Assembly: GCA_020073085.1 (NCBI GenBank)
Contig: JAIQFV010000005.1
Coordinates: 124,001-188,000, forward strand
Length of the DNA: 64,000 nt
Reading direction: 5' to 3'
Source: Terriglobia bacterium
GTDB lineage: Bacteria; Acidobacteriota; Terriglobia; JAIQFV01
Shown: positions 28,459 through 30,675 of the stretch, in pieces
Layout: each line of letters opens with the position of its first letter
Numbering within the stretch: the first letter of the stretch is position 1
Notes under the pieces: generated by a model
Told to the model about the DNA's origin: nothing
Databases searched by the model: none
Seen by the model: the letters and a program-made list of their open reading frames with translations, nothing else
Position numbers and translations under genes: made by a program

Positions 28459-28530
<72 letters not shown>

Positions 28531-28572
28531 CTGGATACTCTCAGAAAAAGATTTCAACCATCCCCCGCTTTT

Positions 28573-28611
28573 AAATTCCAAATTCCAAAATCCAAATTCC
28601 AAACAAAACCC
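28573..28611. repeat. Left 39-bp inverted repeat of the four-helix-bundle element
   Basis: Built from 6-8 base units of the AAATTCC/AAAATCC type. It is the exact reverse complement of 29049-29087. The unit pattern continues inward to about 28630 with less perfect pairing. Confidence 0.9.
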
Positions 28612-28666
28612 AAATTCCAAAATCCAAACAGAAGCTAACCCCCAAAGAATCGCGGGAGACTCACCA

Positions 28667-29023
28667 ATGGAGAACAATAAACCCAAGGATCTTCAGGAAA
28701 GGACATTTCTGTTCGCTAAAAACGTCAGAGATTTCGTGAAGCTTCTGCCTCGGACGGTGTGCAATCTTGAGGACGTACGGCAATTAATCCGAAGCTCGGG
28801 TTCCGTCGCTGCGAATTTCGTTGAGGCGAATGAGTCTCTGAGTAAGAAGGATTTCTTGATGCGGATTAAAATATGCCGGAAGGAGGCCAAGGAAAGCCAT
28901 CTCTGGCTCCGTTTGCTTGAGGTGGAATCCACAGGAAATTGCGAAAAGGGAAGGGAATTGCTCCTGGGAGAAGCAAGAGAACTTGTTCTGATCCTTTCTT
29001 CCATCATCTCCAAGAACAGTTAG
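28667..29023 (+). CDS. Four-helix-bundle protein (S23/IVS-encoded, bAvd-like)
   Basis: A 118-residue all-helical protein of the four-helix-bundle family. Members include proteins encoded in 23S rRNA intervening sequences and the Avd accessory protein of diversity-generating retroelements. Family signatures are LIRSSGSVAANFVEA and FLMRIKICRKEAKESHLWLRLLE. I chose ATG 28667 since the upstream extension runs through the repeat and the tRNA; GGGAG lies about nine bases before it. Family members bind nucleic acid or partner proteins through a basic pore. Here the gene is enclosed by perfect 39-bp inverted repeats, with no reverse transcriptase nearby. That favours an IVS-like mobile unit over a retroelement component. 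Confidence 0.88.
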   Translation: MENNKPKDLQERTFLFAKNVRDFVKLLPRTVCNLEDVRQLIRSSGSVAANFVEANESLSKKDFLMRIKICRKEAKESHLWLRLLEVESTGNCEKGRELLLGEARELVLILSSIISKNS

Positions 29024-29048
29024 GACGGGCTATTGGAATTTGGATTTT

Positions 29049-29087
29049 GGGTTTTGTTTGGAATTTGGATTTTGGAATTTGGAATTT
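29049..29087. repeat. Right 39-bp inverted repeat of the four-helix-bundle element
   Basis: Exact reverse complement of 28573-28611, starting 26 bases after the gene's stop codon. Transcribed as RNA, the two arms would pair and present the gene as a single large hairpin loop of about 440 nt. Confidence 0.9.
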
Positions 29088-29139: not shown

Positions 29140-30675
29140 TTGGCATACGAGGACCTGCGAGGGTTCGTTGAAGCATTGGAAAAAGCCGGCGAGTTGAAGC
29201 GCATTACGGCTGAGGTGAACTGCGAGCTGGAGATCACCGAAATCACCGACCGCATCTCTAAGGCCGGCGGCCCGGCTTTGCTGTTCGAGAACGTGAAAGG
29301 TTATTCCGTCCCGGTGTTGATCAATGCGCTCGGATCAGAAGGCCGCATCCTGCTCGGCCTTGAGGCGAAATCGTATGCAGAGATTACCGAACGCATTGAA
29401 GCCTTTCTCGACTTCAAATCCCCCGAGGGCCTCATCGATAAGATCAAGCTCGTCCCCCAGTTGATGGAAATGGGATCTTTCTTTCCCAAAAGCGTCGGCA
29501 GCGGATCCTCGAAAGAGGTCATTCTGAAATCGGATTTCGATCTCAACCGCTTTCCCATTCTGAAGTGCTGGCCGATGGACGCGGGACGCTTCATCACCTT
29601 TCCCCTGGTCTTTACCCACGACCCGGAGACGGGCCGGCGCAATTGCGGGGTCTACCGCATGCAGGTCTTCGATGGACAGACCACCGGCATGCACTGGCAG
29701 ATCCACAAGCACGGGGCGGAGCATTTTCGCCATGCCCAGCGTGCCGCCGGGACGGGCCCGCAACAGGACAAGAAGGAAACAGCGGATGTTGCCGGAGGCA
29801 AGTCACGACCTTCAAGCCGGCGCCTGGAAGTGGCGGTCGCCATCGGCAGTGATCCCGCAACGATGCTGGCCGGGGTCCTCCCGCTTCCCGAAGGGGTCGA
29901 CGAGATGCTGATCTCGGGTTTTCTCCGGAAGAAGCCGGTCACCCTGGTCCGAGCGGAAACGGTGAACGTGGAGGTCCCCGCCAATGCGGAGATCATTCTG
30001 GAAGGGTACGTGGACCTCAATGAGTTGCGGAAGGAAGGACCATTTGGTGACCATACCGGCTACTACTCGCTGGACGATCTTTATCCCGTCTTTCATTTGA
30101 CCTGCATCACGCACCGCCGCAATCCCATTTACGCCACCACGATTGTCGGTCGCCCCCCCATGGAAGACTGCCACATGGGTTACGCGATCGAGCGCATCTT
30201 CCTGCCGCTGATGCGAAAGCAGTTTCCGGAAATCATCGATTACCACATGCCGTTTGAGGGGATTTTCCATAACCTGATGATTGTTTCCATTCGAAAATCC
30301 TATCCGGGTCACGCCCGGAAGGTGATGAACGGGATCTGGTCGTTGCCGCAGGCCATGTTTACCAAATGCATCGTGGTGGTCGATGAGGACGTAGCGGTGC
30401 GCGATCCCCGGGAGGTCGTGTGGAAGGCGCTGAATCACATCGACCCGGAGCGGGACATTCAATTTATGCTGGGTCCGGTGGACTCTCTGGACCATTCCTC
30501 GCGACTTCCCAACTTCGGCTCCAAGATGGGCATCGATGCCACCACCAAGTGGCCTGGTGAAGGGTTCACCCGCCCCTGGCCGGGGGAGATCAAGATGGAT
30601 GAGGAAACCATCCGGCGCGTGGACGAGATGGTTCCCCTGCTGGGTCTCTCCGCGTGGCTCAAAAAGAAAGGCTGA
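29140..30675 (+). CDS. UbiD-family (de)carboxylase
   Basis: A 511-residue protein of the UbiD family, which uses prenylated FMN to (de)carboxylate aromatic or alpha,beta-unsaturated acids; relatives act in ubiquinone and menaquinone synthesis. The family block from NCGVYRMQVFDG through TTGMHWQIHKHG is present, as are LPEGVDEMLISGF, ILEGYVDLNELRKEGPFGDHTGYY and the C-terminal GIDATTKWPGEGF. Start is TTG 29140, supported by GAGGAGG about seven bases upstream. A Lys/Gly-rich insertion (around residues 205-225) is longer than in Escherichia coli UbiD. No UbiX partner is adjacent. A quinone-biosynthesis role is the default; an aromatic-acid role cannot be excluded. Confidence 0.88.
   Translation: MAYEDLRGFVEALEKAGELKRITAEVNCELEITEITDRISKAGGPALLFENVKGYSVPVLINALGSEGRILLGLEAKSYAEITERIEAFLDFKSPEGLIDKIKLVPQLMEMGSFFPKSVGSGSSKEVILKSDFDLNRFPILKCWPMDAGRFITFPLVFTHDPETGRRNCGVYRMQVFDGQTTGMHWQIHKHGAEHFRHAQRAAGTGPQQDKKETADVAGGKSRPSSRRLEVAVAIGSDPATMLAGVLPLPEGVDEMLISGFLRKKPVTLVRAETVNVEVPANAEIILEGYVDLNELRKEGPFGDHTGYYSLDDLYPVFHLTCITHRRNPIYATTIVGRPPMEDCHMGYAIERIFLPLMRKQFPEIIDYHMPFEGIFHNLMIVSIRKSYPGHARKVMNGIWSLPQAMFTKCIVVVDEDVAVRDPREVVWKALNHIDPERDIQFMLGPVDSLDHSSRLPNFGSKMGIDATTKWPGEGFTRPWPGEIKMDEETIRRVDEMVPLLGLSAWLKKKG

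Follow-up and report, generated by a model that had tools for sequence, protein, structure and literature searches.

An S23p/IVP-family gene between inverted five-unit heptamer arrays outside rRNA: a candidate ring protein with its own repeats

Introduction

Genes described as "four helix bundle" are widespread in bacteria and have no known role. Heptamer repeats are likewise over-represented, with no explanation, in many bacterial genomes (PMC4692102). The window analyzed here, a 64,000-nucleotide stretch of a Terriglobia genome, carries a small gene of the family found in 23S rRNA intervening sequences (IVSs), enclosed in long inverted repeats behind a tRNA-Gly gene. What kind of unit is this, does it move, and what do its arms and its protein do for each other? 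A sequence-only reading of this DNA had proposed a free-standing mobile element with an RNA structure, whose protein might bind its own hairpin.

Results

The unit and its arms

The unit and its two neighbors consist of the following features.

28459-28531, plus strand: tRNA-Gly(ccc) gene (ARAGORN, Rfam RF00005), a conserved neighbor outside the unit
28573-28607, plus strand: outer block of the 5′ arm, five heptamers AAATTCC AAATTCC AAAATCC AAATTCC AAACAAA (sequence; five-unit count in the repeat family)
28608-28627, plus strand: inner part of the 5′ arm, ACCCAAATTCCAAAATCCAA, in a register that differs from the outer block (sequence, inverted repeat)
28667-29023, plus strand: S23p/IVP four-helix-bundle family gene, 118 amino acids plus stop (PF05635, TIGR02436; predicted fold; dN/dS)
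29033-29052, minus strand: inner part of the 3′ arm (inverted repeat)
29053-29087, minus strand: outer block of the 3′ arm, five heptamers on the minus strand (inverted repeat; five-unit count)
29140-30675, plus strand: UbiD-family decarboxylase gene (PF01977, TIGR03701), a conserved neighbor outside the unit and our yardstick for selection

The sequence-only reading had described exact 39-bp arms outside rRNA, and both points hold. The segments 28573-28611 and 29049-29087 are perfect reverse complements, and an Rfam search of the window returned only tRNA. The inverted repeat is in fact longer, pairing 28573-28627 with 29033-29087 at 53 of 55 positions (2 mismatches) across a spacing of 405 nt. 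Its score was 50, and a score of at least 13 flanked only 4 of 300 random boxes from the same genome. The search for further arm copies proposed with that reading yielded many, since allowing up to two mismatches gave 203 occurrences of the arm motif in the genome, compared with none for the motif read backwards. Given these two comparisons, the arms are not a product of chance. Three features went beyond the earlier description: the arm is a tandem array of 7-bp units with exactly five in its outer block, some 200 relatives of it are scattered through the genome, and most sampled family genes are enclosed in the same way. We also considered the tRNA-Gly gene as an attachment site and rejected it, as no duplicated tRNA end was seen and the 5′ arm begins 41 nt beyond the tRNA.

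The protein

The family assignment was borne out by matches to TIGR02436 (E = 1e-15, 57.9 bits, cut-off 24) and to PF05635, the sole Pfam match (E = 1.3e-10, 41.8 bits, cut-off 33.8). No recognized catalytic motif was found in the protein. The predicted monomer model is a four-helix bundle (pLDDT 92), for which the best Foldseek match was 2rld (TM 0.76-0.82), followed by 2gsc and then, among others, Avd; the matches to Avd (4dwl) and to a ribonucleoprotein of a diversity-generating retroelement (DGR; 8ub7) had a TM of about 0.6-0.7. Both solved family structures, 2gsc and 2rld, contain five chains, and the Xanthomonas family protein is described as a toroidal homopentamer (quoted in PMC4990558). 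S23p/IVP genes occur across bacteria and in at least one archaeal assembly. The window protein is a divergent member whose arms are anchored on AA, and the AG rule and residue code described below rest on other members.

Inheritance of the unit and turnover of its relatives

The block of tRNA-Gly, arm, gene, arm and UbiD gene is also present in the other genome of the genus (G001) and in a genome of the same family (G002), and no empty site for the unit was found in these two genomes, which share its flanks. The dN/dS of the gene (0.076) is close to that of the neighboring UbiD gene (0.079). The conserved block and the low dN/dS together indicate that the unit is old and maintained; it is vertically inherited, with purifying selection on its gene, and conservation in G001 and G002 rules out a recent arrival. 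Three further gene-bearing units of the source genome are also present in G001. Between orthologues, array copy number differs by multiples of 7 (L008).

Other units of the class have turned over. In genus g69, the unit of G184 is absent from G149 and G223, which have short junctions instead, and at the matching site G216 carries two heptamers of that word without a gene. On cyanobacterial plasmids, the gap between nrdB and nrdA holds a unit in Nostoc edaphicum but none in Calothrix, and the cas6-cas4 gap holds two different units in Anabaena sp. 90 and Pseudanabaena galeata, with relatives that have none. The junctions at the empty sites in g69 and on the cyanobacterial plasmids were too diverged to define a target-site duplication. 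Mobility, as first proposed, is not supported for the window's unit, which is no newcomer, whereas other units of its class do show empty sites. A conserved, inherited position with neither empty sites nor other copies had been named as the outcome that would speak against a mobile element; the position is indeed conserved, but other copies exist and other units have empty sites.

Several neighboring observations are recorded here. On a Dolichospermum plasmid (L275:1010-1265), the position of the Anabaena sp. 90 cas6-cas4 gap holds a different inverted-repeat element, GTAGGTTGGGTT ... AACCCAACCTAC, with a flank identity of 98.7%. CRISPR operons on cyanobacterial plasmids host units of the S23p class at L272, L277 and L384: twice between cas6 and cas4 of type I-D, with different proteins and words, and once between cas10 and cmr3 of type III-B. 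The Calothrix plasmids AP018208 and AP018209 carry identical units, which were discarded as evidence of movement because they lie within a longer shared segment. Phage carriage was also discarded, as 50,697 phage records gave one weak match, which had no arms.

The same architecture around most family genes

The window's unit is one case of a general architecture around S23p/IVP family genes. The source genome has 13 matches to the family. Eight other full-length genes (L001-L008) all lie in inverted repeats, each with a different short tandem unit, which measures 7 bp in seven of them and 9 bp in the eighth; the full-length gene L009 is not enclosed. For a wider sample, we drew 185 family genes from three sources: the same class and phylum, 80 named genomes spanning many phyla, and plasmids. 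Inverted repeats with a score of at least 13 enclosed 157 of the 185, against the 4 of 300 random boxes of the source genome, a sample in which canonical members are favored because loci from named genomes were collected by a NIAEG-motif pattern; clear arms were not seen at 28. The arm period was 7 in 127 of the enclosed genes, 8 in 17 and 9 in 5. Period 7 also dominates strict tandem arrays in 1.26 Mb of the source genome (46 arrays), where, apart from 7, only two periods between 4 and 15 gave any: 9, with 8 arrays, and 14, twice seven, with 22.

When the heptamers of the upstream arms were aligned in phase, they gave the consensus YAG (A 79%, G 93%) with four variable positions after it; the alignment score was 278, whereas column-shuffled heptamers did not exceed 192. 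A median of 38 nt separates the end of the upstream arm from the start codon.

Two variants were noted in passing. Period-9 repeats, GGTCTGTTC, surround the family gene L006 and also occur as gene-free inverted pairs (G000:C1:12045-12376, G000:C1:38638-39019 and G000:C5:202439-203020, in the source genome). Three genes of a more distant family clade in G002, with the motif TSIGANYREA (L344, L345 and L346), lie inside inverted repeats, two of period 8 and one with arms longer than 100 bp.

Five units per arm

We counted AG runs at exact spacing in the flanks of 182 family genes, which are not independent of one another, and made no use of the arm scores. At spacing 7, runs of 3, 4, 5, 6 and 7 units numbered 15, 13, 42, 12 and 6 upstream and 17, 19, 41, 19 and 7 downstream. 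The peak at five was absent at spacings 5, 6, 9 and 10 and small at spacing 8, and in 2000 random windows of the source genome only 3 runs reached five. The window's own repeat family uses the anchor AAA, not AG. The outer block of its 41 arms, a count slightly inflated because a few arms were included twice, has five units in 30, four in 6 and three in 5, and never more than five in the source genome. Tandem repeats normally drift in number; the fixed count therefore suggests a ligand with five sites.

Each protein has its own word

Protein identity correlated with word similarity (Mantel r = 0.24, with 0 of 2000 permutations as high; r = 0.19 for pairs below 55% identity), and nearest-neighbor proteins from different phyla shared words above all 1000 permutations, although common descent inflates such figures. 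The word GTGTCAG is shared by Acidobacteriota and Chloroflexota, and GATNNAG by Betaproteobacteria and Bacteroidota. The tightest link between an alignment column and the word connects the residue right after NIAEG, at the end of helix 2 in the predicted structure, with the base right after AG (z = 12): Q goes with T in 28 of 32 cases, H with G in 18 of 20, C with C in 9 of 12 and Y with G in 7 of 11. Among pairs at 40-45% identity, the base was shared at a frequency of 0.58 if the residue was shared and 0.27 otherwise. The rule called 10 of 13 held-out loci correctly, some of them from G001 and G002, with relatives in the source genome that had served for training; a cleaner test is given by the six cyanobacterial loci, of which five were called correctly. 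Because of the inflation by descent, we treat a residue-base code between protein and word as a strong lead, drawn from sequence comparison.

Dispersed arrays without a gene

In the source genome, many arrays pair as inverted repeats without a gene, with similar arms and unrelated loops. At sites common to this genome and G001, such hairpins keep their arms, and their loops are unalignable. After most gene loci had been masked in the same 1.26 Mb, words belonging to proteins of the genome itself formed a median of 11.5 clusters, compared with a median of 0 for 107 words from foreign genomes (p = 5e-6). Counts of the window's motif were 203, 150 and 80 in the three genomes with the gene beside tRNA-Gly, whereas none of 38 others in the class exceeded 21. 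A preference of the arrays for a gene arrangement, such as convergent genes, was not significant (p = 0.13).

Other repeats of the source genome came to light in the course of this survey. At G000:C2:431483-432118 and G000:C27:45175-45420, a 3′ arm with its flank is repeated head to tail several times with a period of about 91-98 bp; the former has one 5′ arm, and none was seen in the latter. G000:C11:34831-34957 (L157:14831-14957) is a 127-bp repeat with the short palindrome GGGGCGCATAGCTATGCGCCCC, whose matching site in G001 spans only 18 nt; G001 contains dozens of copies at other places, and the repeat appears to be a miniature mobile element of an unrelated kind.

RNA folding, arm pairing and reverse transcriptases

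The transcript of the window's unit would, by computation, form a long stem (z = -5.5). Mismatches between arms carried no sign of selection for a stem in the sense RNA, as G.U pairs (162) were not in excess over A.C (187), the two being about equal. The order of the units agrees between the arms beyond chance (p = 7e-5), strongly so in the window, and it follows that pairing or arm-to-arm copying also plays a part.

Reverse transcriptase matches (RVT_1) were absent from G002, which has 10 family matches and 80 motif hits, and from G027, which has 17 family matches; none of the five in the source genome lies on the window's contig. No template or variable repeats were found beside the unit. 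Dependence on a reverse transcriptase is unlikely, as the genome content does not require it.

Discussion

Overall, from the count of five, the match between protein and word and the cognate dispersed copies, we infer a ring protein acting on its own repeats in a REPIN-like system. The unit would encode a ring-shaped S23p/IVP homopentamer between two inverted copies of its own putative site. Each array would present five anchors 7 nt apart, one per subunit, usually AG and, in the window's family, AA, and the bases between the anchors would form the word specific to each protein lineage. One ring would presumably occupy five units, and binding in trans might let arrays be copied at a low rate. 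The inverted pairs that are scattered in the genome without a gene would then persist with the gene as REPINs do with RAYTs. We regard this explanation as fairly probable. That the product of the window's gene may bind its own arms, as the sequence-only reading guessed, is the best-supported reading. Several points count against the explanation: the divergence of the window's protein, the 28 genes without clear arms, the arms of period 8 or 9, the share of common descent in the correlation of protein and word, the lack of a definable target-site duplication, and the agreement in unit order between the arms, which exceeds what two independent binding arrays need. With regard to the ligand, RNA is suggested by the Avd relative and by the IVS, but not by the mismatches between arms.

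We hold a wider version more tentatively, at somewhat below an even chance. S23p/IVP genes may form a separate genome-resident class of repeats, in which a pentamer reads five heptamers by a residue-to-base code, maintains and occasionally multiplies its cognate inverted arrays and causes much of the heptamer excess of bacteria. The 23S IVSs would then be the few members that landed in rRNA.

A host-domesticated regulator is the alternative that survives best, and we consider it possible though rather unlikely. The protein would control a regulon by binding heptamer arrays, including its own leader, in a TRAP-like manner, and the arrays would spread by slippage or recombination. Vertical inheritance and purifying selection of the window's unit agree with such a role, as do the arms kept around unalignable loops at shared gene-free sites and the position of the upstream arm shortly before the start codon. 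However, in genus g69 and on cyanobacterial plasmids, sites that otherwise match differ in whether they hold a whole unit bounded by arms, and the placement of arrays relative to gene orientation is that of chance.

Another alternative is a free-standing relative of the 23S IVS, a selfish RNA hairpin whose long stem is cut by RNase III, with heptamers that only build the stem and a protein that is incidental or decaying. The family, the similar length and the complementary ends are those of an IVS, heptamers and RNase III cleavage are both known for the one in Coxiella (PMC4990558), and both the predicted stem of the window's transcript and the agreement in unit order would fit. Nevertheless, a stem selected in the sense RNA should show an excess of G.U over A.C, and it needs neither exactly five units nor a protein-specific word; moreover, the protein is under purifying selection. 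We judge this alternative unlikely.

An Avd-like protein that works with a reverse transcriptase in trans to copy hairpins would account for the fold matches to 4dwl and 8ub7, but G002 and G027, which have many family matches, gave no match to such an enzyme, and the five matches of the source genome all lie off the window's contig, which makes this a distinctly improbable reading. Simple slippage, with heptamers as the commonest slippage unit lying around these genes by chance or weak selection, would fit the shifts by multiples of 7 at L008 and the heptamers common in many bacteria (PMC4692102), yet it is contradicted by the inverted pairing around one gene family, the fixed five, the protein-specific words and the own-genome word enrichment, and we give it hardly any credence.

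If the proposed ring protein with its own arrays is right, it would provide an origin for 23S rRNA intervening sequences and a REPIN-like system that lacks a recognized transposase. The architecture around the family genes may also account for many 7-letter repeats that so far lack an explanation. A countable rule (five units, one pentamer) and a readable code (one residue, one base) make the link between gene and heptamers directly testable.

Comparison with known systems

TRAP, the trp RNA-binding attenuation protein, is a ring of 11 subunits that reads regularly spaced (G/U)AG repeats, one per subunit. The logic proposed here, one AG anchor per ring subunit, is the same, and the count of five and the AG fit it, with binding as the inferred part. 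In contrast, TRAP has an unrelated fold, 11 subunits and a shorter spacing, and it has neither inverted arrays nor a dispersed family. Avd, the pentameric nucleic-acid-binding partner in diversity-generating retroelements, shares the fold of the window protein (4dwl, 8ub7), whereas the window's unit has no reverse transcriptase and no template or variable repeats. Insertion sequences and MITEs combine terminal inverted repeats with insertion at sites that are empty in relatives; other units of the class show both, but no empty site was found for the window's unit in the two genomes that share its flanks.

Reports on Xanthomonas, Nostoc and Beggiatoaceae describe intergenic 7-nt repeats, which in Xanthomonas often form convergent inverted pairs. 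The available sections of these reports (PMC4692102, PMC4679880) draw no link to S23p; Xanthomonas has the family protein 2gsc. Our literature search, which ran mostly outside subscription journals and preprints, turned up no account of arms flanking S23p genes elsewhere than in rRNA, and none of a five-unit count, of words specific to a protein or of dispersed arrays cognate to one. On heptamer arms around S23p genes, it found only the note on Coxiella burnetii (PMC4990558).

The IVS of C. burnetii has a 28-bp stem, an S23p gene and the heptamers GACAGAT just before that gene (PMC4990558). These heptamers tie a known IVS to the class of the window's unit and uphold the connection to 23S rRNA intervening sequences that had been suspected from the protein family. 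The two kinds share a gene of the same family, complementary ends (a 55-bp repeat here) and a similar length. They differ in that the window's unit is not in rRNA, its arms are five-unit arrays with protein-specific words, and it has hundreds of gene-free relatives. Additionally, the window's gene is under purifying selection, whereas that of Coxiella is reported to be decaying (PMC4990558). Similar to REPIN-RAYT systems (PMC3116915, PMC8049555), a vertically inherited gene is flanked by its own repeats, and dispersed gene-free inverted pairs track the gene across genomes. However, the RAYT is a tyrosine HUH transposase, and the window protein is an S23p four-helix bundle; several S23p-type systems also coexist per genome, each with its own word. 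The window's unit belongs with the S23p/IVS kind, yet it sits outside the rRNA in which an IVS lies and carries a protein other than the enzyme that defines REPIN-RAYT systems.
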